This document shows positions 131 to 17,965 of a DNA stretch of 17,965 nt, one piece after another. Within the stretch, counting starts at the first letter, position 1; every line of letters starts with the position of its first letter. Source of the stretch: Candidatus Neomarinimicrobiota bacterium (GTDB lineage: Bacteria; Fidelibacterota; Marinisomatia; Marinisomatales; TCS55); contig JABIDL010000039.1 of the NCBI GenBank assembly GCA_018651745.1, forward strand, positions 1 to 17,965, in the 5' to 3' direction. Position numbers and translations under genes: made by a program. The notes beneath the pieces are model-generated. The model ran no database searches and was not told the DNA's origin. It worked only from the letters and a program-made list of their open reading frames with translations.

Positions 131-811
131 ATGACAATGAGAAACAAGTATGTTAGTCGTTCCCATATTTCTGAGAAGAAATTTAGGCAGTTGGTTAAAC
201 TGTTTTCTTTGGATCTTGACGCCATTCAAATCAGTGAACTTTCCCATCTTAACCGCAATACCGTTAATCGCTATCTTAAGATTATTCGAACTAGAATCGC
301 AGAGCTTTGTAAAATTGAATCGCCACTTGGTGGCGAGGTGGAAATAGATGAAAGTTACTTTGGCGCAAAGCGAGTTAAAGGAAAGCGTGGACGTGGTGCT
401 AGCGGTAAAACAATTGTGTTTGGAATTTTGAAACGTAAAGGTAAAGTTTATACAGAAATTGTTCCAGATGCTTGTCGGAAGACGCTTCAGGATATCATAC
501 GGGGACGAGTAGATATGAAAACAATTATACATTCAGATGGCTGGAGAGCTTACAATGGATTGGTCGATTTGGGGTACAAAAAGCATTTTAGAGTCCATCA
601 TGGAAAGAATGAATTTGCAAGAGGTCGAGCCCATATTAATGGGATTGAAAGCTTTTGGGGATATGCTAAAACCAGGCTTTCTAAACATCGTGGAATTCAT
701 AAAAATGCGTTCTATTTTCATTTGAAAGAAAGTGAGTTTAGGTTCAATTTTAGGCATGAAAATATCTACCAAATATTACTCGAAAACTTTCGAAATAACC
801 CGCTAAACTAG
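131..811 (+). CDS. IS1595-family (ISXO2-like) DDE transposase
   Basis: This 226-residue protein carries out cut-or-copy transposition of the enclosing element. Residues about 14-56 form a helix-turn-helix-like region (QLVKLFSLDLDAIQISELSH, then NRNTVNRYLKII). The ISXO2-like catalytic domain follows. GGEVEIDESYFG supplies the first acidic residue (D73), IIHSDGWRAY the second (D136), and HINGIESFWGYAKTR the third block (N170/E173), which matches the DDE/DDN variants of this family. There is no N-terminal zinc ribbon, as in the IS1016 subgroup, and the length is normal. The stop codon (809-811) lies inside the right inverted repeat. Two in-frame ATGs occur at 131 and 137 without a good ribosome binding site. 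The start overlaps the tail of the interrupted host frame (which stops at 156), so translation may depend on read-in from that gene. Confidence 0.93.
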   Translation: MTMRNKYVSRSHISEKKFRQLVKLFSLDLDAIQISELSHLNRNTVNRYLKIIRTRIAELCKIESPLGGEVEIDESYFGAKRVKGKRGRGASGKTIVFGILKRKGKVYTEIVPDACRKTLQDIIRGRVDMKTIIHSDGWRAYNGLVDLGYKKHFRVHHGKNEFARGRAHINGIESFWGYAKTRLSKHRGIHKNAFYFHLKESEFRFNFRHENIYQILLENFRNNPLN

Positions 812-3773: not shown

Positions 3774-4238
3774 ATGGATATAATTCTTATTGCGGCCGTA
3801 ACTGCGAACGGAATGATTGCAAAATCTCATGATGAGATTATCACGTGGTCGCTGGATTTACACCTATTCCGAAAACAAACCACCGGGTTTCCTGTTATAA
3901 TGGGATCAAACACTAAAAAGACCCTTGCAACGGATCTAGATGAAAGACAGCTGATTGTGTTTCATCGGCAGGACGATCCAAAAGAGATATTATCCAAACT
4001 AGATTCAAAAAAATGTTTTATTATAGGTGGCGGAAAAACATATTCAGTATTCGCTCCTTACTTAACTCATTTATATTTAACCCCACATCCACTCATTTTT
4101 GGAAAAGGAATCCCCCTGTTTTTCGAATTAGATGGAAACTTAGAATTAAATTTTCAAACCTTAGTAGAAATAGATCCAGCAAAAGGTGTTTACCAGTATC
4201 AATATAAAGTACGACGTGATATTCATCACACACGCTGA
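3774..4238 (+). CDS. Dihydrofolate-reductase-like protein (DHFR/RibD-C fold)
   Basis: This 154-residue cytosolic protein probably reduces dihydrofolate to tetrahydrofolate with NADPH. DHFR signatures appear in order. IAAVTANGMIAK is the first strand. WSLDLHLFRKQTTG contains the catalytic acid D28 and F32 (the E. coli D27/F31 positions). PVIMGSNT is the nucleotide-binding strand, and IIGGGKTYSVF is the conserved G-G loop. LYLTPH carries the family threonine. The end, PLIFGKGIPLF, resembles the DHFR-like RibD C-terminal group more than classical FolA, so a related pteridine or pyrimidine reductase is a real alternative. No ribosome binding site is visible, because the start is three bases behind the preceding terminator tail. 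The next in-frame ATG (residue 14) would remove the first strand, so this start is preferred. No thymidylate synthase gene is adjacent. Confidence 0.78.
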   Translation: MDIILIAAVTANGMIAKSHDEIITWSLDLHLFRKQTTGFPVIMGSNTKKTLATDLDERQLIVFHRQDDPKEILSKLDSKKCFIIGGGKTYSVFAPYLTHLYLTPHPLIFGKGIPLFFELDGNLELNFQTLVEIDPAKGVYQYQYKVRRDIHHTR

Positions 4239-4282: not shown

Positions 4283-5479
4283 TTATTTTTGTGCCCGCCT
4301 AGCTTTAACCAAAGCTGATTTTACTTTAGCCCGAAGCGTACGATCGTCAACGGCGTTTATGGAATCCATGTTTCCACCAAGCCCTTCGTCCACCAACCTT
4401 TGTATGAAATCATCCTCAGATTCTTCATTCCCCACAGCCGCCGTGTTAACAGGCGAAACTTCGGGTATATTTTTAGGCATTGGCGGAAGATTTCCCGATC
4501 GCTTCGCTCGAACCATGGCTGATTTAGCCTTTCCCCGAAGTGCTTTATCTTTGATAGAATTGATAGGGTCCATATTTCCCCCGATTGCCTCGTTAACAAC
4601 ATAAGCAATACAATCATCATCGTTAGAAAATAGCGGTAGTGCAGAAGCATCAGAAGCGTCGGCAGAGTCCGATTCTGGAGGCGGTCCATCTTTTAATGCT
4701 TTTTCTAAATGTTTCTGGATCGACCCTCCTCGCTTTGCCCGCACCAATAATGATTTTGCTTTTCCCCGCGTTGCCTTTGATCCAATAACGGCGATGGGGT
4801 CCATATTGCCGGAAAGCCCAGCTTGAACAGCAAAAGCAATCATAGACAATTCTTGTTCGGGGGTCATTGTTGAAGTTTTATCAATCAAAACCTCGGGGCT
4901 TTCGCCAACGTTATCCTCCCTAATAAAAAATCCCAAATTTGAAAGAATATGAGATTTGGCGCCACTAAAACCAAAAAGCGTAAAAAACGAAAATAGACCC
5001 TTACTTGTTCTTTTACAGGTAACAATAGTATTTCCGTCAGAAGCTGTTTCAAGAGTAAAAGTTACCAATTCTTTAGACAGTGGATTAAATCGTAAAGAAA
5101 AAGTCAATTCTTTGTTTAGCTCAACAGCCATAATTCTTCCTCGATATAATGGCGAAATTGCATTTGTGCGAACAAGAACAAAAGAGCCGGGAGAAAAATC
5201 AAACCGGTCGAAGGAAAATTTATGCGCATATCGTTCGGCATCAACAATTGGAAGAATTTGTCTGATACCGGGGAACCATAAATTGTAATTAGAAAGCGAT
5301 GTAAGCGCCCTCCACACGCCCCCAACTTTTGCACTAAATGTATGTCGAACGATTGTCTCCGACATAAAGGGACTATAAAAAGATTGATATTTACTATTAA
5401 TAATCCTCTGGTCACTGAGGTCCCAGATAAGGAGTGCGGTTGTCCCTAAAACTAAAATGGCGGCAAAGGTTAATAACAT
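4283..5479 (-). CDS. Membrane-anchored SRPBCC-like protein with three 40-residue repeats, function unknown
   Basis: This 398-residue protein is of unknown function. Residues 2-19 form one membrane helix (LLTFAAILVLGTTALLIW). Positive charges follow the helix, which by the positive-inside rule suggests that the rest is cytoplasmic. Residues about 40-188 look like an SRPBCC (START/polyketide-cyclase) ligand-binding domain: SETIVRHTFSAKVGGVWRAL at the start, a W-F-P block, and alternating strands ending in a long helix. The tail has three equal, gapless 40-residue repeats at 213-252, 290-329 and 358-397. They share G-G-N-M-D-P-I, R-G-K-A-K-S and V-R-A-K-R, and are joined by acidic or Pro/Ser-rich linkers. 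The repeats are basic and probably helical, and I know no family for them. No clear ribosome binding site precedes the start. M39 is an alternative start but would lose the membrane helix. The gene converges on the reductase-like gene and diverges from the acylase gene. Confidence 0.8.
   Translation of the reverse strand: MLLTFAAILVLGTTALLIWDLSDQRIINSKYQSFYSPFMSETIVRHTFSAKVGGVWRALTSLSNYNLWFPGIRQILPIVDAERYAHKFSFDRFDFSPGSFVLVRTNAISPLYRGRIMAVELNKELTFSLRFNPLSKELVTFTLETASDGNTIVTCKRTSKGLFSFFTLFGFSGAKSHILSNLGFFIREDNVGESPEVLIDKTSTMTPEQELSMIAFAVQAGLSGNMDPIAVIGSKATRGKAKSLLVRAKRGGSIQKHLEKALKDGPPPESDSADASDASALPLFSNDDDCIAYVVNEAIGGNMDPINSIKDKALRGKAKSAMVRAKRSGNLPPMPKNIPEVSPVNTAAVGNEESEDDFIQRLVDEGLGGNMDSINAVDDRTLRAKVKSALVKARRAQK
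4289..4843 (-). repeat. Region coding three 40-residue protein repeats
   Basis: The repeats are encoded at 4724-4843, 4493-4612 and 4289-4408. They are collinear without gaps at protein level. All three keep GNMD at the same offset, followed by basic R-x-K-x-K-S and V-[RK]-A-[RK]-R. The DNA copies are diverged, so the duplication is old and has been kept by selection on the protein. Confidence 0.88.
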
Positions 5480-5673: not shown

Positions 5674-8076
5674 ATGAATAAAAAAGAAATCATAATCACC
5701 GCATTTTTGTTACTGGGGCTTTTTGGCATGCTTTGGTTAAAACTATATTTTAATCAGCCGGTCATTTCATATTCAGGATCATCCAACATTCCAGAGCTCG
5801 AAAGCAAAGTAGAGGTTTTCACTGATAGGTACGGCGTTCCGCATGTTTTTGCAGAAAACGAACAAGATCTCATGTTTATGTCGGGATATTTAACTGCAAG
5901 GGAACGGCTATTTCAATTATCACTCCGAGCCTCAGCGGGAAGAGGTGAACTAGCATCCTTTTTGGGAGACGACCTGGTTTCAAGCGATATTTATCTCAGA
6001 ACGTTTGGCATTCCATCAGTTGCAAGGCGCATCACAGCAAACACCGATAAAAAAACATTATCATTTCTTCGAGCATATTGTGCAGGAATTAATAAATGGA
6101 TAGATGAGTCAGAAGACCAACTTCCAATTGAATTTAAAATTTTAAAATCGAAGCCAGTAAAATGGAAGCCATCAGACGTGGTTGCATCGGTTAGACTAAT
6201 GGCTCGAGAGCTGCAACAATCGTGGAGAATAGAAATTGTGATGGGATTGCTTGTAGAAAAGCTTGGTGTAGAAAAAGTCAGAGAACTTTTTCCTTTGGAT
6301 GCCGATGATATAAAAATAGTACCGATAAAAACATCTCTTTCCTCTCTTTTTCAATCCATGAAAAATTCTGAAAACCAAATCCGATCCATTATGCACTCGG
6401 ATGGCTCTGTTATGGGCTCTAATAATATGGTAGTCGGAAGACCTCTTACAAAATCAGGAAAACCTATTTTAACAAACGACCCTCATCTCGGAACGTCCCA
6501 ACCCGCCTGGTGGTACGAAATGCATTTAAAAGGTGGCGATATAAATGTTAGCGGTATTTGTTTGCCGGGCTTACCTCTTCCTGTAATTGGGCAAAATGAG
6601 TTTTGTGCATGGGGATTCACCAACGTAATGGCGGACGATATGGATTTTTTTGTAGAAACCCTTCACCCAGAAAACAAAACACTATATAAACATAAGGGCG
6701 AATGGAAAACAATTGAAGAGGTCGAAGAAACCATACCCCTTAAATCGGGCGGCGAAAAAAGAATTATCATTCGTAAAACCGTTCACGGACCGATTATTAG
6801 CGATATTCACGATTTAATTGAAGGATCAAATACGGCAGTGTCTATGGCGTGGGTCGGGAATAGAGAATCAAATGAAATAAAAGCCCTTTTAGAAATGTCA
6901 TATATAAAAAACTGGGAAGATTATTCAAAAGTTGTAAAACAAATATCGATACCCGGACAAAATATTGTATATGCGGATATTAATGGAAACATAGGCTGGA
7001 GACCTGCGGTCAAAATCCCTATTAGAAAAGAAGGAAACAGCCTTATTCCCAGACCCGGAGAATCGGGCGAATATGATTGGACAGGGTTTGTCCCATTTGA
7101 TGAAATGCCATACTTGTTAAACCCGGACGCCGGATTTATAGTAACAGCTAACAATAAAACGATAGACGACTCATATCCATATTATATATCAAATCAGTTT
7201 GCTCCTCCGAGCCGAGCAATTCGCTTTACGGAAATGGTGACGGAAACAAAAAATATTACCATAGAAGATGTGAAGAAAATGCTGATTGATCAACTTTCAC
7301 CCCAATCTCGCGAAATAACCAGATATTTTTTACAAAGTAGATCAGGAACAGAAACGGGAAATCTTAAGTTTGCCTATGATTTATTAGCTGACTGGGATTT
7401 TATTGAATCGCCAAATTCACAAGCTGCATTGGTTTTTCACGTGGCATTCAGCCATTTGCTGAAAAATATTTATGGTGACGAATTAAATGAAATTGAAGAT
7501 GGCATATTAGAGGATTTTCTAGAAATGCCGATGGTGCCAATCAGAAGTCTTTTGGCACTTCTTAGGTCTGGATCTTCGAGTTGGTTTGACAACGTTCGAA
7601 CAACAAGAATTGAAACTATGGAAGAGATATTATATATTTCAATGCGCGAAGCTGTAAGCGAAATAGAAAGAAATATTAGTACAGTTCCAGGCAGATGGGT
7701 TTGGTCAAAAGTGCATAAGATTACCTATACACACCCCCTGGGCAAAATAGCCATTCTTGATAAACTATTTGGATTTAACGTGGGTCCCTTTTTATCTGGA
7801 GGTTCGTCGGGAACAGTAAATAAGGGACAGTATAAACACTTATCGGGATACACGACCATTGTTGCCCCTTCGATGCGGCGCATTGTTGATTTTGGAAATT
7901 TAAACAACACGCAATTTATTTTACCAACGGGCCAGTCCGGAATTCCATCAAGCCCCCATTACAAAGATCAAGCAGAAATGTTTGTTAATGGAAAATTTAG
8001 AACAACATATTTTGAAGAAAATTATATTAGAACCGCCAACGATTTTCAAAAGATGGTTTTTCAACCCCTAGAATAA
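5674..8076 (+). CDS. Penicillin acylase family protein (Ntn hydrolase, peptidase S45)
   Basis: This 800-residue acylase precursor is exported or membrane-anchored (hydrophobic residues 6-26 after a short KK stretch). Family members are cut autocatalytically before a serine that becomes the N-terminal nucleophile of the beta chain and hydrolyses amide bonds. Here MGSNNMVV places that serine at S249, so the alpha chain would end at G248. Other hallmarks are DRYGVPHVFA (51-60), YLTARERLFQL (72-82), LTNDPHL (267-272 region) and LPLPVIGQNEFCAWGFTN, with oxyanion asparagine N317. The usual tryptophan after SNN is methionine here. The length is normal. Possible substrates include N-acyl amino acids, acyl-homoserine lactones and other amides, and the sequence does not decide between them. 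No clear ribosome binding site is seen. The gene is followed after four bases by a phosphodiesterase gene, so it is probably the first gene of an operon. Confidence 0.92.
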   Translation: MNKKEIIITAFLLLGLFGMLWLKLYFNQPVISYSGSSNIPELESKVEVFTDRYGVPHVFAENEQDLMFMSGYLTARERLFQLSLRASAGRGELASFLGDDLVSSDIYLRTFGIPSVARRITANTDKKTLSFLRAYCAGINKWIDESEDQLPIEFKILKSKPVKWKPSDVVASVRLMARELQQSWRIEIVMGLLVEKLGVEKVRELFPLDADDIKIVPIKTSLSSLFQSMKNSENQIRSIMHSDGSVMGSNNMVVGRPLTKSGKPILTNDPHLGTSQPAWWYEMHLKGGDINVSGICLPGLPLPVIGQNEFCAWGFTNVMADDMDFFVETLHPENKTLYKHKGEWKTIEEVEETIPLKSGGEKRIIIRKTVHGPIISDIHDLIEGSNTAVSMAWVGNRESNEIKALLEMSYIKNWEDYSKVVKQISIPGQNIVYADINGNIGWRPAVKIPIRKEGNSLIPRPGESGEYDWTGFVPFDEMPYLLNPDAGFIVTANNKTIDDSYPYYISNQFAPPSRAIRFTEMVTETKNITIEDVKKMLIDQLSPQSREITRYFLQSRSGTETGNLKFAYDLLADWDFIESPNSQAALVFHVAFSHLLKNIYGDELNEIEDGILEDFLEMPMVPIRSLLALLRSGSSSWFDNVRTTRIETMEEILYISMREAVSEIERNISTVPGRWVWSKVHKITYTHPLGKIAILDKLFGFNVGPFLSGGSSGTVNKGQYKHLSGYTTIVAPSMRRIVDFGNLNNTQFILPTGQSGIPSSPHYKDQAEMFVNGKFRTTYFEENYIRTANDFQKMVFQPLE

Positions 8077-8080
8077 TACC

Positions 8081-8836
8081 ATGTTTGTAGGTTTTATTAT
8101 ATTTTTAGTACTTTATTTTTATCACAACACATGGAGCCCCAAAAACGTAAATATTTTTTATAAGTCAAGCCCCCTTTACATTGCCCACCGAGGAGCGCCG
8201 AACAGCGAACCGGAAAACACCATCCCATCTTTTTTATCCGCCGTTAACGCAGGATTGACCGCCATTGAATTAGACGTTGTTAGTACGCAGGATGGGGTGG
8301 TTGTGTGTTCACATAATTTTGACCTTGAGCGAAAAACTTCTGCCGAGGGATATATTGATAAAACGACATTTGAAAATATAAAATCTCAAACAAGGCTTAT
8401 TGCAAAATTAGAGGATGTTTTTACAATCGTTCCGAAACATGTAATTGTAAACATAGAAATTAAAACAAGAAATTTGTGGGATTTGAAAACCGTCAAAGAA
8501 GCCGTACGCCTAATCAATAAATATAAAATATCAGACAGAACGATACTTTCCTCATTTAATCCTATTGTTCTTCTAATGACCCACATATTAAATAGAAGCA
8601 TTTATACTGCCTTTATTGTTTGGGAAAAGAAATGGATTTGGCTAATAGATTGGATACACCCGGACTTCCTTCACCCGGACTATGGATTGGTAAGTAAAGA
8701 TTTAATACGATATACCAAAGAAAGAAACATGGGACTAAATGTTTGGACTGTAAATAGCAAGCCGGGGATTAGTTGGCTAGATGAAATTGGTGTTGATGGT
8801 ATAATCACCGACCGACCCAAATTTTGCAAGATATAA
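8081..8836 (+). CDS. Glycerophosphodiester phosphodiesterase family protein, membrane-anchored
   Basis: This 251-residue enzyme hydrolyses glycerophosphodiesters (deacylated phospholipids) to glycerol 3-phosphate and an alcohol. The GDPD TIM-barrel motifs are complete. AHRGAPNSEPENT has H36/R37 and E43 or E45. AIELDV carries the metal ligands E63 and D65. CSHNFDLERKT has the second histidine, H78. VNIEIK has E126. The C-terminal strands are LNVWTVN and GVDGIITDRP. Residues 2-15 are hydrophobic (FVGFIIFLVLYFYH) and probably act as an uncleaved membrane anchor. The start is four bases behind the acylase stop and lacks a Shine-Dalgarno site, so it may be translated by re-initiation in a shared transcript. 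Wrong substrate within the GDPD family is possible. Confidence 0.93.
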   Translation: MFVGFIIFLVLYFYHNTWSPKNVNIFYKSSPLYIAHRGAPNSEPENTIPSFLSAVNAGLTAIELDVVSTQDGVVVCSHNFDLERKTSAEGYIDKTTFENIKSQTRLIAKLEDVFTIVPKHVIVNIEIKTRNLWDLKTVKEAVRLINKYKISDRTILSSFNPIVLLMTHILNRSIYTAFIVWEKKWIWLIDWIHPDFLHPDYGLVSKDLIRYTKERNMGLNVWTVNSKPGISWLDEIGVDGIITDRPKFCKI

Positions 8837-8869: not shown

Positions 8870-11800
8870 ATGAGTTCTAATAATAACAAATGGACTTTTG
8901 CTGCAGATCGTGGAGGCACCTTTACCGATATTCTTGGAATTGATCCAAATGGGCAATTTCACCAGGAAAAAATCTTATCAGAATCGGCTCTATATGAAGA
9001 TTCTGTATTAGAAGGAATCCGCCGCGTTCTTAAAAAAAATAGTCAAAATTATTCGGAAAAATTGATTTCAGAAATCAGAGTTGGAACAACCATTTGTACA
9101 AACGCACTTTTAGAACGTAAGGGATCAAAGATTGGATTGTTAATAACTTCGGGGTTTAAAGATCTCATTACAATTGGAGACCAAACGCGCCCAGATATAT
9201 TTAGTTTATGGATTGAAAAACCTAAACCACTATATCAGCGGTCACTAGAAATTCGCGAGCGTATCAATTTTGAAGGAAAAGTTGAGACCCCGCTGGACAT
9301 TTCCGATATCGAAAAAGCAATTGAAGAATTAAAAACTCAGGGGATTTTGACGGTTGTAACCTTATTTATGCATTCATGGAAAAACCCATCCCATGAAAAA
9401 CAAGCAGCCAAAATTATCAAAGACAACGGGTTTTCTGATGTTATATGTTCCCACGAAGTTTTGCCATTGATTAAGATGGTTACTCGCGGTCAGACCGCGT
9501 TAGTAGATGGGTACTTGTCTTCATTGCTTTTATCTTACATAAAAACCCTAAAAACCCAAATTGGGAAACCAAACATACATTTTATGACAAGTTCGGGTGG
9601 TTTGGTGGATTCAAAAATAATTCGAGCTAAAGATTCCATTCTTTCCGGGCCCGCCGGAGGGGCGGTCGCAGTAGCGGCGATAAGTGACCAATTAGGAATT
9701 CGAGAAACGATTGGTTTTGATATGGGTGGCACATCCACAGATGTTTGCCGATATGATGGAGAGTTAGAACACATTTCTGAAACAGAACTCGCAGGAATTA
9801 AATATCAGACGGATCAGTTAGATGTTGAAACTGTTGCAGCGGGTGGTGGGTCAATTCTTGGTTTTGACGGACAAAAAACTACTGTCGGACCTCAATCCGC
9901 GGGGTCTTATCCGGGACCAGCTTGTTACGGAAACGGAGGGCCGCTTACCATTACTGACGCCAATTTAATTCTTGGTCGGCTTTTTCCTGAAAATATGCCT
10001 ATAAATTTTGGGTCGTCGGGAATAAAAGGTTTGAATATTGAAGTTGCCTATCGGTCCTTTAAGTCCTTAACTAAAACCATCAACAAAAAAACAAATGAAT
10101 GTTATACGCCTGAAATATTAGCCGAAGGATATATTGCTGTTGCAAATGAAGCGATGTGTAGGGTTATTAGGAAAATTTCGATTGCAAAAGGATATGATAT
10201 TCGAAAACACACTTTAATTTGTTTTGGATCTGCCGCCGCTCAACACGTCTGCTCTATTGCCAAATCTTTAAAAATAAATAAAATTATTATTCATCCCCTA
10301 GCCGGAATTTTATCTGCATATGGAATTGCTATAGCAGATAAAACAAATAGAAAAGCAATGGCAATTATGGAAGTTCTTACAGAAAACCTTCTTTCTCATC
10401 TTGATGATAAATTTAATCAATTGGAATCCGAAATATATAAATCTCAATTTCAAAATCAATTTGATTCAATTAGGATTGATCGTTATCTCGATATGCGCCC
10501 TCTTGGCAGCGACACTTATCTTACAATAAAAGTAACCGATGTGAACAAGATTTATCCAATCCGTGAACAATTTATTAAATCATATAAAAAACGATTTGGG
10601 TTTTATCCGGAAAACAGTGAAATCGAAGTTGTTAATATAAGAACAGAGGTGTCCAAAATAGGGTTGGGACGATTTTATGAAAATATATTTTCTGGCTCTT
10701 TTAAAAAAACTAAATCAAAGCCCAAACCTGATAAGTTCAAAAAAGTATTTTTTTCGGGAAGTTGGATAAAAACACCGGTCTTTTATAGAAAAACTTTGAA
10801 CCCAAATTTTATTATTTCAGGACCGGCGGTTATTGTTGATGATTTTACTACAGTTATTGTAGAGCCCGGTTTTACAGGCTCGTTCAATCAGGCTGGGCAC
10901 TTAGAAATACTTGCTGCAAATATTATAAAATCCAAAACTAGCGAAAAAAGAGATCCCATTCTTCTCGAAATATTTAACCACCGCTTTATGAGTATAGCGG
11001 AGCAAATGGGCTATACTTTAGCCAATTCAGCCCACTCGATTAATATAAAGGAGCGTCTTGATTTTTCATGTGCAATTTTTGATGCTAGAGGAGAATTGGT
11101 AGCTAACGCGCAGCACATCCCGGTTCATATTGGATCCATGGGAGATTCAGTAAAAACGGTTTTATCACAAAATAAAAACACCTTAAAAAAAGGTGACGTT
11201 TTTTTAATTAATAATCCGCACAATGGAGGATCTCATTTGCCAGACATTACTGCCGTGTCTCCAGTCATAATTAATAACAAACTTGTGTTTTTTGTGGCAA
11301 CCCGCGGTCACCATTCGGACATTGGAGGAATCACTCCGGGGTCCATGTCGTCCACCGCAACTACTCTAGAGGAAGAAGGTGTGGTGATTGATAAATTTTT
11401 ATTGGTAAGAGACGGAGCGTTTTTTCAAGAAGAGATTTCTACACTGTTGTCAAGTGGATTATACCCAGCACGAAATATTCCGGAGCGAGTTTCTGATCTT
11501 CGCGCCCAATGTGCCGCTAATGCAAAAGGAATACAGATTTTAGAACAATTAGTAGATGAAATGTCTTTAAATGTCGTTACGGCCTATATGCAGCACATAC
11601 AGGACAACGCAACAGAGGCGATGGAAGAGGCTCTTAACATTTTCCTTGGTAACAAAAAAATATATAATAAAAAATTCATTGATACATTAGACGGTGGTCA
11701 GAAAATATGTGTAGAAATAATAATAAGTAGATCTGATAATAGGTGCAGAATAAAAATAGATTTTTCGGGTACCAGTTCTGAAATTAAGGAAAACTTAAAC

Positions 11801-12511
11801 ACGCCATCTTCGGTTGTTAAATCCGCTGTTCTTTATGTGTTGCGCACGCTTATTATGAAAAACATCCCGCTCAATTCTGGCTGTTTTCGACCAGTAGATA
11901 TCATAATACCGAAAGATAGCCTTTTGAATCCATCCTCAACGGCTGCGGTAGCTGGTGGGAATGTGGAAACATCCCAAAGAATTGTCGATGTTTTGTATGG
12001 CGCGCTTGAGCTAACTGCAGCTTCACAGGGTACAATGAATAATTTTACATTTGGTTTACCGGATGGAAGTGGAAAACAATATTATGAGACTATCGCTGGC
12101 GGATCGGGAGCTACAAACGGCCACCATGGCGCATCTGCCGTTCAGGTGCACATGACAAACACGCGCATTACCGATCCGGAGGTATTAGAACAACGGTTCC
12201 CGGATATAAGAATTGAAAAATTTGCAATTCGGAAAAACTCTGGTGGCGATGGGAAATGGATTGGAGGTGATGGAGTGGAAAGAGCAATACGTTTTCTTAA
12301 AACAATGAAAGTATCTCTTTTAACTGAAAGGCGCGTATTTCCACCGTACGGTATGAAGTATGGTAATCCCGGGAAAATAGGGAAAAATATTTTAATTCAA
12401 GAGGATGGACAAGAAATAAAAATGGACGGAACGGAAGAGCAAACAATTAACCCCGGTGAAAAAATTGTAATAAAGACCCCCGGTGGTGGTGGGTATGGAA
12501 AAAGAACTTAA
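8870..12511 (+). CDS. Hydantoinase/oxoprolinase, HyuA-HyuB fusion (probable ATP-dependent 5-oxoprolinase)
   Basis: This 1213-residue cytosolic enzyme probably opens 5-oxoproline to glutamate with ATP hydrolysis. The HyuA half starts with [12 protein letters not shown] (10-21). The D-R-G-G form is typical of 5-oxoprolinases, whereas hydantoinases usually have D-V-G-G. The core includes SGPAGG (259-264) and [11 protein letters not shown] (282-292), the second nucleotide-binding loop of the actin-like fold. The HyuB half begins near residue 690 ([21 protein letters not shown]). It contains [13 protein letters not shown] (781-793), GHHSDIGG (813-820) and a glycine-rich end with PGGGGYG. HyuA and HyuB are separate genes in many bacteria but fused in eukaryotic and some bacterial oxoprolinases of similar length. 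The gene lies 33 bases behind the phosphodiesterase gene and probably shares its operon. It has no visible Shine-Dalgarno site. Its stop faces the stop of a small minus-strand gene 13 bases away. Confidence 0.93.
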
Positions 12512-14332: not shown

Positions 14333-14894
14333 TAATCATTTTTATAGCTTCAATAAAGGCTTGTCCTTCTAATTCTTGTACTTTTGTTTTTAATGTTTCA
14401 ATAGTATCGTCAGAATCTACATTACATTTTTTCTGAACTAAAATAGGTCCACCGTCCACGTCATCCGTAACAAAATGGATCGTGCACCCCGTTTCTGTTT
14501 CACCGTTTTTTAATACTTCTTCATGGACGTTGGTATCCATTCCGCCGGCATATTTAGGCAAAAGAGACGGATGAACATTTAACAACTTATCCCGCCATTC
14601 TTGGCAAAATTCAGTAGACAAAATTCGCATAAATCCAATGAGCAAAACCAGTTCAACATTATGGCTTTTCAATATAGCCGTCATTTCAGCATCAAAAGTT
14701 TCTCGCGATTTATCCTTATGAGAAATGAACACAGCCGGCACGCTATGATTTTCAGCTCTCTCTAATATATAGGCATTTTTGCGATTAGATAGAACCACAG
14801 AAACGTCCGAATCCAATTCACCGGACGCAATGGCATCCAATATGGCTTGTAAGTCTGTGCCGTTGGTTGAGCCAATAACGCCGAGTTTTATCAT
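14298..14894 (-). CDS. purN: Phosphoribosylglycinamide formyltransferase, 10-formyl-THF dependent
   Basis: This 198-residue cytosolic enzyme transfers a formyl group from 10-formyl-tetrahydrofolate to GAR, the third step of IMP synthesis. It opens with KLGVIGSTNGTDLQAI, the phosphate-binding loop, in a variant form (family more often G-S-G-x-G-S-N). Catalytic N106 and H108 lie in LLNVHPSLLP, at the same positions as in E. coli PurN. The catalytic aspartate is D147 in DDVDGGPIL. The insert GGMDTNVHEEV after the LLPKY block differs from the shorter E. coli loop. The start ATG overlaps the purD stop (ATGA, 14891-14894), which indicates translational coupling. The last ten residues are coded by the inverted repeat at the purN-purH junction and are probably not structural. 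Confidence 0.95.
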   Translation of the reverse strand: MIKLGVIGSTNGTDLQAILDAIASGELDSDVSVVLSNRKNAYILERAENHSVPAVFISHKDKSRETFDAEMTAILKSHNVELVLLIGFMRILSTEFCQEWRDKLLNVHPSLLPKYAGGMDTNVHEEVLKNGETETGCTIHFVTDDVDGGPILVQKKCNVDSDDTIETLKTKVQELEGQAFIEAIKMISHKDTNTQSIK

Positions 14895-16204
14895 CGTAAA
14901 GCATTCATATGGTCAACCCGTTTTCGAATCACATCATCTGTCCCAATATCTGTCCGATGAAATAGTGGACCCGAAAGGGAAGACACTTCTTTTTCCGCAA
15001 TTTTTTCTGCTTCAGAAATGGTATCTGCTATTCCCACAACAGCAACTGTTCTGCTTCCAATTTCTACAAGATTTGCGCCTTTAAAATCAACGGACGCATA
15101 AAACAATTCGTCTGGATTTTCGATTTTGGAAACATCAATAGGTTCGCCTTTTACAGGATTATCCGGATATCCTTCAGGCACGGCATATTTGCAAACAGTC
15201 GCTTTGTTGGCAAATTTTACATCCATTTGATCCAAAGTGCCATCGGCGATTCTGTGACACAATTCAATAAAATCAGATTCCAAAAGCGGCAACACATTCA
15301 TGGCTTCCGGATCGCCGAATCGGGCGTTGTATTCAATGAGTTTTACTCCATTCGTCGTTGCCATAAATCCGCCATAAAGGATGCCTTTGTATCCGACCCC
15401 AAAATTATCTTTTACCGCCTTAGCGGTTTGAATATTAATTTCATGCGCTTGGGAAATATCATCATCCGACAAAAAAGGAAGCGAATGATTTGCATCAGAA
15501 TAAGTCCCCATACCGCCGGTATTGGGTCCCGTATCTCCTTCGTATGCGCGCTTATGATCTTGGACGGCAGGCATGTGTTTTAAAGTGTCGCCATCGCAAA
15601 AACTCATGAGAGAAAATTCTTCACCAATGAACTTTTCTTCAATGACAAATTCACCACTACTATTCACCAGTTCTTGACAATACGCAATTGCTTCATCGTG
15701 GGAATGTAAATGATCTCCCGAAACTTTTACGCCTTTTCCACCAGCGAGACCGTCATACTTTACCACATAATTTTCACCCAACACATTCAGGAATTCAGCT
15801 ACACCATTCATGGAATTGAAGGTTTGATATTTCGGTCCACCTGGGATATTATATTCTTTTAATAAATCTCGGGTAAACGCTTTGGATGTTTCTAATTGAG
15901 CCAGATCTTTTTTGGGTCCAACCACTTTTACGCCTGCACTCCAAAGTTCATCTGCTACACCATTCGCCAATGGATTTTCTGGGCCAATGATAGCCAAGGT
16001 TGTTCCAATTTCCTTAGCATAATTGACTACAAATTCAGGATCGTTGAAGTTGCCAATTAAAATTTCATCACAAAGTTCGGCAATGCCTGGATTCATATTG
16101 GAGGCAAGACAGTAAATTTCTTTTTCTTGGGGTGAACGATCTAAAGCTCGAACGATGGCATGTTCCCTTGCGCCAGAACCGATGACTAAAAATATATTTT
16201 TCAT
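14891..16204 (-). CDS. purD: Phosphoribosylamine-glycine ligase (GAR synthetase)
   Basis: This 437-residue ATP-grasp enzyme joins glycine to 5-phosphoribosylamine with ATP, the second step of IMP synthesis, in the cytosol. The N-domain starts FLVIGSGAREHAI (5-17) and contains GPENPLANGVAD (74-85). The ATP-grasp region has VVKYDGLAGGKGV (147-159), EEKFIGEEFS and the family signature HKRAYEGDTGPNTGGMG (217-233). The metal-binding block is IEYNARFGDPEAM (290-302). The length is normal. No Shine-Dalgarno site is visible before ATG 16204, and the 5' side holds a CTCTGTG-type repeat. Its substrate is the unstable product of PurF, whose gene lies upstream in the same orientation, separated by two small membrane protein genes. 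It overlaps purN by four bases. Confidence 0.97.
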   Translation of the reverse strand: MKNIFLVIGSGAREHAIVRALDRSPQEKEIYCLASNMNPGIAELCDEILIGNFNDPEFVVNYAKEIGTTLAIIGPENPLANGVADELWSAGVKVVGPKKDLAQLETSKAFTRDLLKEYNIPGGPKYQTFNSMNGVAEFLNVLGENYVVKYDGLAGGKGVKVSGDHLHSHDEAIAYCQELVNSSGEFVIEEKFIGEEFSLMSFCDGDTLKHMPAVQDHKRAYEGDTGPNTGGMGTYSDANHSLPFLSDDDISQAHEINIQTAKAVKDNFGVGYKGILYGGFMATTNGVKLIEYNARFGDPEAMNVLPLLESDFIELCHRIADGTLDQMDVKFANKATVCKYAVPEGYPDNPVKGEPIDVSKIENPDELFYASVDFKGANLVEIGSRTVAVVGIADTISEAEKIAEKEVSSLSGPLFHRTDIGTDDVIRKRVDHMNALR

Positions 16205-16252: not shown

Positions 16253-16627
16253 TTAAAAACAAAATCTAATTAAAAAGACAATAACTCCAAGCAAGATCAT
16301 TCCAATTAGGAATAAAGCAGACTGTTTTTTTAGCTTTTTTTCTTCATCGGTAATAGGACGAATTTCATCTTTATGTTTTTTTTCATTTCCCGAGCCAATG
16401 GCAACACCGATTGCGACACCGATCGCAATTCCCATTGCAACATTGTTCAACGCCACACCAATTCCCACGCCTATTGCTACACCAACCCCAAGACCTTGCT
16501 CCATCCAATATCCTTTTGGATGCCCGGTAAGTATTTTTTGAATTTTCCGCTGTTTACGTATTTGGATAAGGGCAAAAGCACCCACCACCAAAACCATAAT
16601 TAATATGATGTAAATTTTATAGGTCAT
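16253..16627 (-). CDS. Glycine-zipper membrane protein, 124 residues, function unknown
   Basis: The protein has an N-terminal membrane helix (residues about 4-21, IYIILIMVLVVGAFALI) and a basic stretch (IRKQRKIQKI). Next comes a long alanine/glycine segment at about 44-79 built of G-x-[AG]-I-G units (GLGVGVAIGVGIGVAL, then GIAIGVAIGVAIGSG). A charged loop follows (KKHKDEIRPITDEEKKLKK), and the last helix (about 104-122) ends at the C-terminus. Such small-residue repeats usually pack tightly in membranes and can oligomerise. The gene starts two bases after the stop of the preceding small gene, whose last codons supply AAGG as ribosome binding site, so the two are coupled. It sits inside the purine operon, but its role there is unknown. 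Confidence 0.82.
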   Translation of the reverse strand: MTYKIYIILIMVLVVGAFALIQIRKQRKIQKILTGHPKGYWMEQGLGVGVAIGVGIGVALNNVAMGIAIGVAIGVAIGSGNEKKHKDEIRPITDEEKKLKKQSALFLIGMILLGVIVFLIRFCF

Positions 16628-16629
16628 TA

Positions 16630-16821
16630 TTATTTACCTTGTTTCCCATGATTGAAAGCCATGGCAATTGTCATTCCGATAGCGGGTCCGATCGCAACGC
16701 CAATGGCGACCCAAAAAGGGACATTTCCAGTAACGGCGCCAATAACCGCACCGATGGTTACACCAAAAGAAGCGCCAAGAGCAAGCCCGAGCCCGATTGA
16801 TTTGTTCTTCTTCTTATTCAT
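16630..16821 (-). CDS. Glycine-zipper membrane protein, 63 residues, function unknown
   Basis: This short protein has a lysine-rich start (MNKKKNKS) followed by two alanine/glycine-rich hydrophobic segments, residues about 8-30 (IGLGLALGASFGVTIGAVIG) and about 35-57 (FWVAIGVAIGPAIGMTIAMAF). The end is basic (HGKQGK). Repeated G-x-x-x-G spacing marks a glycine zipper, as in its neighbour, which suggests that the two proteins may form one membrane complex. The frame stays open upstream to a TTG at 16918-16920, but that extra 33-residue stretch is coded by a hairpin repeat (16841-16883) and looks unlike protein, so ATG 16821 is preferred. No good ribosome binding site is visible for either start. 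It lies 115 bases after purF and two bases before the next gene. Confidence 0.72.
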   Translation of the reverse strand: MNKKKNKSIGLGLALGASFGVTIGAVIGAVTGNVPFWVAIGVAIGPAIGMTIAMAFNHGKQGK

Positions 16822-16840
16822 TTTGTTTAAGCGCTTTAGT

Positions 16841-16883
16841 AAAGTTTCAAACTTTGCGGAAGTAAAACCAACTTTCGCAAAGT
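16841..16883. repeat. Palindrome plus hairpin repeat in the spacer after purF
   Basis: AAAGTTTCAAACTTT (16841-16855) is a perfect palindrome around one base. It overlaps a second hairpin with 12-base arms (16851-16862 and 16872-16883, 11 of 12 matches, the exception being a G-T wobble) and a nine-base loop. The outer arms read ACTTTGCG and CGCAAAGT. Further right, AACACTTT occurs three times on the plus strand (16895, 16903 and 16920). No U-tract follows, so it is not a typical terminator. It looks like a dispersed intergenic repeat or mRNA-processing structure. Confidence 0.6.
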
Positions 16884-16936
16884 CAATGCTCGTGAACACT
16901 TTAACACTTTTCCAACTCAAACACTTTCTTCATATT

Positions 16937-17965
16937 TCATTTCCCATTCCGATCATTCATGCGCATATTTTCCATTTCTGCAATTTTAGCTTCATCAATA
17001 TCATTCGCCACATAGTTTCCATCCAGACAAGCCATACAAGGCGTATCTATATGGTGGTCGCCTTTCCGAGTCACCGCCTCCACCAAATCATCAATTTTTT
17101 GATACAGCAACGCATCAACTTTAAGATAATCTTGGATTTCATCTTCATTCATATTACCGGCGATGAGTTCCCCTTTTGTTGGCATATCAACCCCATAAAA
17201 ACATGGCGATTTTACCGGCGGACAGGCCACAGCAAAATAGACCTCCTTTGCGCCAAAATCTTTTAGCATTCGCACAATTTCACGGCTCGTATTTCCCCGG
17301 ACAATACTATCATCCATAATCATTACTTTTTTATCGCGGATTTCAGTCTCTTGTGGCACCAATTTATATTTCACGGACTTTTTCCGCTCTGCTTGTCCTG
17401 GCATAATAAAGGTGCGCCCGATGAATGTGTTTTTATATAGTCCTTCTGAATATCGCACGCCCAATTCGTGGGCGAAAGAAAGGGCAGCTGTGTTTGCTGT
17501 GCTGGGGGCAGGGATGACAATATCTGGAACGATATCAGGATGTTTTTTCTTCCATGCTTCGGCTAAATTTTGTCCCATCCGCAATCGAGATCGATAGACA
17601 CTTACATCGTTTAAAGTGGCGTCGGGGCGGGCAAAATACACATATTCAAAAATGCATGGATTAAAAGATTTTTTAACCAAACGCTTACTAAAAACTTTTC
17701 CACTTTCATCCACATAAATCAGTTCACCCGGGAGCACAGTTCCTTTTGGTTCAAACCCCATTGAATAAAACATGGTATTTTCAGAAGCAAAAATATAATC
17801 CTTACCGCCATTTCCATTGGACCGTTCACCTTTTACTAATGGACGAATTCCCTGTGGATCGCGAAAAACAACGAGCCCCTTTCCAATAACAATACTGACG
17901 ACAGAATAAGCCCCTTTCACTCGTTTAAAAATTTTAGTAACAGCATTACACAAAAGATAGAAAAA
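16937..17965 (-). CDS. purF: Amidophosphoribosyltransferase, partial (5' end beyond the window)
   Basis: This enzyme makes 5-phosphoribosylamine from PRPP and glutamine, the first committed step of purine synthesis, in the cytosol. The frame is open to the right edge, so the start and the N-terminal catalytic cysteine of the glutaminase domain are missing. Visible glutaminase parts are KGAYSVVSIV and FRDPQGIRPLV. The phosphoribosyltransferase domain has the PRPP loop VMIMDDSIVRGNTS (about 17285-17326). Four cysteines, in NPCIFEY, PCFYG and CMAC, are spaced 151, 55 and 3 residues apart. This matches the 4Fe-4S ligands of the Bacillus subtilis type (146, 55 and 3), so an oxygen-sensitive iron-sulfur PurF is likely. 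IPAPSTANTAA and the C-terminus look normal. It is the most upstream pur gene visible. Confidence 0.95.
   Translation of the reverse strand, partial: FFYLLCNAVTKIFKRVKGAYSVVSIVIGKGLVVFRDPQGIRPLVKGERSNGNGGKDYIFASENTMFYSMGFEPKGTVLPGELIYVDESGKVFSKRLVKKSFNPCIFEYVYFARPDATLNDVSVYRSRLRMGQNLAEAWKKKHPDIVPDIVIPAPSTANTAALSFAHELGVRYSEGLYKNTFIGRTFIMPGQAERKKSVKYKLVPQETEIRDKKVMIMDDSIVRGNTSREIVRMLKDFGAKEVYFAVACPPVKSPCFYGVDMPTKGELIAGNMNEDEIQDYLKVDALLYQKIDDLVEAVTRKGDHHIDTPCMACLDGNYVANDIDEAKIAEMENMRMNDRNGK

Follow-up and report, generated by a model that had tools for sequence, protein, structure and literature searches.

We find that a 40-residue module, carried in three copies by a putatively membrane-anchored SRPBCC-like protein of Candidatus Neomarinimicrobiota, also occurs in this phylum on NuoC and NuoI of complex I and on KorB, the beta subunit of 2-oxoacid:ferredoxin oxidoreductase, and that it is undescribed in Pfam, NCBIfam and the PDB. 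A sequence-only reading of the gene had suggested a sensor or tethering protein; the presence of the module on NuoC, NuoI and KorB moves the explanation away from a generic sensor or tether and towards the electron input of a complex I that lacks nuoEFG. We propose, with a confidence that falls a little short of even, that it is a three-helix docking module on the electron-input side of nuoEFG-less complex I in Neomarinimicrobiota.

The window is contig C39 in its entirety (17,965 bases), from a genome of 1.86 Mb that is 95.8% complete and belongs to Candidatus Neomarinimicrobiota / Marinimicrobia (SAR406), for which the NCBI name is now Fidelibacterota. The gene under study, taken from the open reading frame list, its parts and its conserved neighbour are as follows.

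3774..4238, plus strand: DHFR-like gene, convergent with the SRPBCC protein gene (Pfam DHFR_1, E 1.4e-15).
4283..5479, minus strand: SRPBCC protein gene, 398 aa, encoding a membrane helix, a helix-grip domain and three 40-residue modules.
5414..5476, minus strand: N-terminal membrane helix, residues 2-22 (AlphaFold2 helix; charges).
4910..5395, minus strand: SRPBCC / helix-grip domain, residues 29-190 (about), from Foldseek and VIA-align.
4724..4843, minus strand: module copy 1, residues 213-252 (self-alignment, orthologues, profile).
4613..4723, minus strand: linker 1, residues 253-289, which differs among orthologues (low pLDDT at 265-279).
4493..4612, minus strand: module copy 2, residues 290-329 (self-alignment, orthologues, profile).
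4409..4492, minus strand: linker 2, residues 330-357 (low pLDDT at 340-351).
4289..4408, minus strand: module copy 3, residues 358-397, C-terminal (self-alignment, orthologues, profile; folded alone at pLDDT 91.9).

The three repeats align without gaps and lie exactly where the sequence-only reading had placed them, each with the motifs G[GS]NMD[PS]I, R[GA]KxKS and V[RK]A[RK]R that it had named. Ungapped BLOSUM62 self-scores of the repeat pairs over 40 residues are 119, 116 and 78, whereas the best scores in each of 1000 shuffles average 21 and never exceed 59. The same reading pictured small modules strung on variable, acidic or Pro/Ser-rich linkers, and this agrees both with the low pLDDT of the linkers and with a set of 86 linkers, acidic or Pro/Ser/Ala-rich, that average 33 aa in length and -4.4 in charge.

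Prediction of a single module on its own, from 81 module sequences, confidently gives a three-helix domain (pLDDT 91.9, pTM 0.69; helices 5-17, 22-25 and 30-47), with H1 of about 13 aa, a short H2 of 4 aa and a basic H3 of about 18 aa. The repeat had been described as a turn followed by a basic helix; the basic helix stands, but the predicted fold extends the unit to H1-H2-H3, with a first helix that is acidic as a family average. Mean charges of the SRPBCC-borne copies are -2.7 for the N-terminal half and +6.4 for the C-terminal half, the net charge of a whole module is a modest +2 to +4, and helix 3 is basic in each carrier class.

Family searches return no described counterpart, as the sequence-only reading had supposed. 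Pfam searched against 23 diverse modules gives nothing above cut-off (best E 0.019), NCBIfam finds no match for the repeat in the window protein, and profile searches of the PDB reach a best E of 0.13, with no PDB chain, NDH-1 included, matched by sequence. That best PDB match, the Hemolysin II C-terminal domain, spans 24 residues and was taken as chance, while Spore_YtrH, DUF5681 and DUF842 were set aside as below cut-off and inconsistent among copies (DUF5681 reaches E 0.002 on one orthologue). In fold searches with the module, Foldseek finds no significant match (best E 2.8), and the best VIA-align rows (Z 4.6, to archaeal ribosomal proteins) lie within the range of common helical arrangements. 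Searches of plasmid records gave no match, and no RNA families were found in the window. The peripheral subunit-binding domain of 2-oxoacid dehydrogenase E2 (PF02817) is likewise helical, about 40 residues long and set on flexible linkers, where it docks partner enzymes. Its outline resembles that of the module, but profile similarity is nil, and E3_binding was rejected as an assignment: compared with three E2 domains of this phylum, the module reaches an hhalign probability of 0.1.

An AlphaFold2 model of the full window protein (26 sequences; pLDDT 77.6, pTM 0.44) shows a helix-grip domain and three helical units separated by low-confidence linkers. Foldseek places the N-terminal domain nearest to CalU16, a START-like protein (best PDB E 4e-8), and VIA-align superimposes it on 3ijt_A with Z up to 15.9 (rmsd 2.6 over 135 residues), so that the helix-grip fold of the SRPBCC / START-like superfamily, anticipated from the letters, is found by both methods. 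The domain is assigned by fold rather than by Pfam family because its Polyketide_cyc2 score of 12.9 bits lies below the 27.4 cut-off and no curated match is returned. The single membrane helix, also anticipated, is present in the model at residues 2-22, although it is not essential, as a sister family carries a short soluble N-terminal domain in its place. The absence of any K or R before this helix and the net charge of +7 on the domain that follows it suggest, by the positive-inside rule, that the C-terminus and its modules probably face the cytoplasm.

The surroundings of the gene differ between families. Adjacent genes in the window family, for a DHFR-like protein and M16 peptidases, are not respiratory; some of its genomes also have 2-oxoacid dehydrogenase E2 and E3 at a greater distance. 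The DHFR-like gene is convergent and adjacent, or nearly so, in the window and in 22 of 36 related loci, a conserved association within the window family that probably has no part in the function. In sister families, 11 loci (L088, L090, L094-L100, L104 and L107) hold the SRPBCC gene upstream of genes for HEAT, Rieske, two cytochrome b parts and cytochrome c; at most of these loci the gene also runs divergently from CtaA, SCO1 and a gene of the UbiA family. Elsewhere in the window, an IS1595-family transposase (131-811, plus strand; Pfam E 3.8e-30) occupies the contig end, and a fused hydantoinase/5-oxoprolinase A+B of 1213 aa (8870-12511, plus strand) follows a penicillin-amidase-family gene (5674-8076) and a GDPD gene (8081-8836). 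Between purD-like (14891-16204) and purF-like (16937-17953) genes lie two adjacent small proteins (16253-16627 and 16630-16920, minus strand) rich in glycine zippers of the GVAIGVAIG type, for which Pfam glycine-zipper and other matches are weak.

These contexts bear on what the SRPBCC domain itself might do. One account, which is compatible with docking and which we consider possible though on the unlikely side, makes the protein a quinone or lipid handler that the modules merely place at respiratory complexes. The helix-grip fold, the membrane helix and the position in front of Rieske-cytochrome b genes in a sister family agree with it, as does the description of CoxG as a menaquinone-binding membrane protein (PMC13240472). 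CoxG and COQ10-type START proteins resemble the SRPBCC protein in helix-grip domain, membrane association and respiratory context, the last of these seen here in a sister family. On the other hand, no CoxG or COQ10 family profile matches the window protein in Pfam or NCBIfam up to E 1, and the window-family gene does not stand beside respiratory genes. CoxG and COQ10 have both been proposed as quinone or lipid handlers, and tandem docking modules are not known to be part of either family. By analogy with CoxG and from the Rieske-cytochrome b context, a quinone is a reasonable guess for the ligand, and the pocket may hold a quinone or a lipid.

The protein is widespread in its order. Near-full-length orthologues of the 398-aa protein occur in most genomes of the same family (E 1e-76 to 4e-118), and full-length forms extend to several other families of the order. 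Repeat number varies from 2 to 4 among orthologues from dozens of genomes, a kind of variation that the sequence-only reading had named as support for a new module. Scanning 84,980 species with two SRPBCC-region patterns yields 36 loci, nearly all from genomes titled as this phylum or just as bacteria, a scan that is keyed on the SRPBCC region and so is of little use for judging whether other phyla have module carriers. One locus, L105, comes from a MAG titled Flammeovirgaceae and shows a typical Neomarinimicrobiota SRPBCC gene with an SCO1 neighbour; the title is probably wrong.

A search of 245 genomes of the phylum with a 23-module profile finds a match in 99, and in the 61, 20 and 30 genomes for which matches were listed fully, the only carriers are the SRPBCC protein, NuoC, NuoI and KorB. 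NuoC carries one or two copies at its N-terminus. NuoI carries two full copies at its C-terminus in G061, and one to five longer relatives were detected in families f16, f19 and f20; these share no more than a 28-column core with the module, though significantly (hhalign probability 97.5, E 5.7e-12), and their own PDB matches are mostly designed helical proteins. The N-terminal module of KorB is confined to one genus (G009 and G016), and the remaining KorB proteins found in the 61 genomes are without the extension. Two fragments that end at contig edges start like NuoC, one of them directly behind nuoA-nuoB. NuoC frames of 190-240 aa in G041, G045, G047 and G053 were discounted as extensions, the extra length preceding the likely start codon.

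Comparison of the copies points to transfer between proteins. Within G009 and G016, the KorB modules share 68-79% identity with repeat 2 of the SRPBCC proteins, a level that indicates copying from protein to protein, and the likeness includes the following linker with its motif AERP. In G124, too, the nearest counterpart of the NuoC modules is SRPBCC repeat 2, here from related genera. Transfer of the module to electron-input proteins has therefore probably taken place more than once. Such movement, together with the absence of the module from some relatives, could also be read as the spread of non-functional tails by copying without selection, but we hold this to be most improbable. Two residues of the R-G-K-A-K motif, its arginine and its second lysine, do not vary in any of 81 modules, the SRPBCC protein is conserved through much of the order, the module fold is predicted with confidence, and the KorB extension is rich in silent changes, with 19 silent and 22 replacement codon differences over 72 codons.

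The link to nuoEFG-less complex I starts from the window genome, whose sole further module stands, as one copy, at the N-terminus of NuoC. Here the nuoB stop and the start codon of nuoC overlap over four bases, so that translation most likely includes the module in NuoC. In NuoC of the Bacillus type, a long segment rich in lysine and alanine extends the N-terminus; NuoC of the window genome aligns to positions 307-425 of the NCBIfam model PRK07735, which is 430 long. The gene cluster (L158) reads nuoA-B-C-D-H-I-J-K-L-M-N without nuoEFG, which fits an 11-subunit complex I or noncanonical NDH (nNDH), and a search for NuoF in this 95.8% complete genome found none. Among 71 NuoC loci in 61 genomes, the module is present on 20 of the 59 without a nearby NuoF and on none of the 12 that are NuoF-linked; the Fisher p of 0.015 is a guide only, as the loci are not independent and shared ancestry is ignored. 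More telling than this p are G018, G023 and G030, which have both kinds of cluster on one contig and carry the module only on the nuoEFG-less NuoC. The module-extended NuoI proteins examined also sit in nuoEFG-less clusters. As separate observations, the NuoI at L149 (G018:C113:2500-4403) is nearly identical to that of f16 (L133) although G018 is assigned to f1, which is likely MAG contamination, and L199 (G192:C8:57000-76000) holds two successive nuo sets, the first with an extended NuoI and the second cut by the end of the stretch.

Carriers do not strictly co-occur. The module is on NuoC alone in G001, G002, G003, G010, G012, G017 and G022, and on the SRPBCC protein alone in many other genomes, so strict pairing of SRPBCC and NuoC modules was rejected on the carrier distribution in the 61 genomes; 19 of these relatives have no module at all, which makes the module dispensable for nuoEFG-less complex I. 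This distribution also weighs on the idea that the modules bind each other, SRPBCC-borne copies pairing with those of NuoC and KorB through acidic helix 1 and basic helix 3 to gather a respiratory cluster at the membrane. The charge split within each module, the multivalency of the SRPBCC protein and the copying of the module between carriers would all suit such self-assembly, but we judge it improbable, as genomes at least 90% complete contain a single carrier: NuoC with one copy in G001, G012 and G017 and with two in G010, and the SRPBCC protein in G007, G014, G019, G043 and others. A shared third partner fits these nearly complete single-carrier genomes better than module-to-module binding.

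Docking of a shared soluble partner is accordingly the form in which we develop the proposal. The modules would hold this partner near complex I, and the best candidate may be an acidic ferredoxin reduced by 2-oxoacid:ferredoxin oxidoreductases; the window genome encodes a 101-aa ferredoxin with a net charge of -20 and a pI of 4.05. NuoC and NuoI belong to the peripheral arm, through which electrons enter complex I. On their flexible linkers, basic modules could concentrate the acidic carrier locally, or hold its reductase, and the SRPBCC protein would be a membrane-bound accessory that offers several docking sites. The loose co-occurrence of the carriers, the modest net charge of whole modules and the non-respiratory genes adjacent to the SRPBCC gene in the window family weigh against this proposal. 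A basic helix could instead bind acidic lipid or nucleic acid, making the module a generic membrane or RNA anchor, and both the basic helix 3 of every carrier class and the membrane helix of one carrier family are in keeping with this. We nevertheless think it quite improbable, since the carriers are non-random, those other than the SRPBCC protein all sitting where electrons enter complex I or load onto ferredoxin, since complex I is membrane-located already, and since the matches to ribosomal proteins are weak. If docking is correct, the module may be a portable tag that, by being copied from one protein to another, recruits its carriers to a ferredoxin-to-complex-I route and links 2-oxoacid:ferredoxin oxidoreductase, nuoEFG-less complex I and the quinone- or lipid-binding SRPBCC accessory in one respiratory assembly, an extension that we offer tentatively and regard as unlikely at present.

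Several known systems lie close to this proposal. The nNDH that Getz et al. 2018 (PMC6143742) described in Marinimicrobia, a complex I from which the NADH-binding subunits are missing, shares with the present case the phylum, the absent NADH-binding subunits and the nuoABCD-HIJKLMN cluster of the window genome and its relatives. That paper leaves the electron donor open, with flavodoxin suggested (PMC6143742). Its accessible text does not mention an added module on either NuoC or NuoI, an SRPBCC partner or a connection to KorB, all three of which are features here. Work on another 11-subunit complex I proposes ferredoxins as the shuttle, with pyruvate:ferredoxin oxidoreductase as the foremost candidate for the source (PMC11238625). 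The ferredoxin site of cyanobacterial NDH-1 is a highly positive surface on NdhI and NdhH, together with NdhV and NdhO, and NdhI, the NuoI counterpart, holds clusters beside that site (PMC7021789). Photosynthetic NDH-1 is thus alike in being complex I-like, without an NADH module and fed by ferredoxin via a positive surface (PMC7021789), but its added parts are separate subunits, whereas here NuoC or NuoI carries the module as a fused part, and KorB and the SRPBCC protein use it again. Docking domains and ferredoxin-fed complex I are already known; a portable module common to complex I, to KorB and to an SRPBCC protein of the membrane is, as far as we are aware, new, and a literature search found no paper describing one.

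Many bacteria pose the question of what donates electrons to a complex I that has no NADH module. Neomarinimicrobiota (SAR406) occur widely in the ocean, and a module common to their nuoEFG-less complex I and to a ferredoxin-reducing enzyme gives a direct handle on that question and a bait for the partner. It also provides a functional context for an otherwise unannotated membrane SRPBCC protein that has been kept in much of the order.
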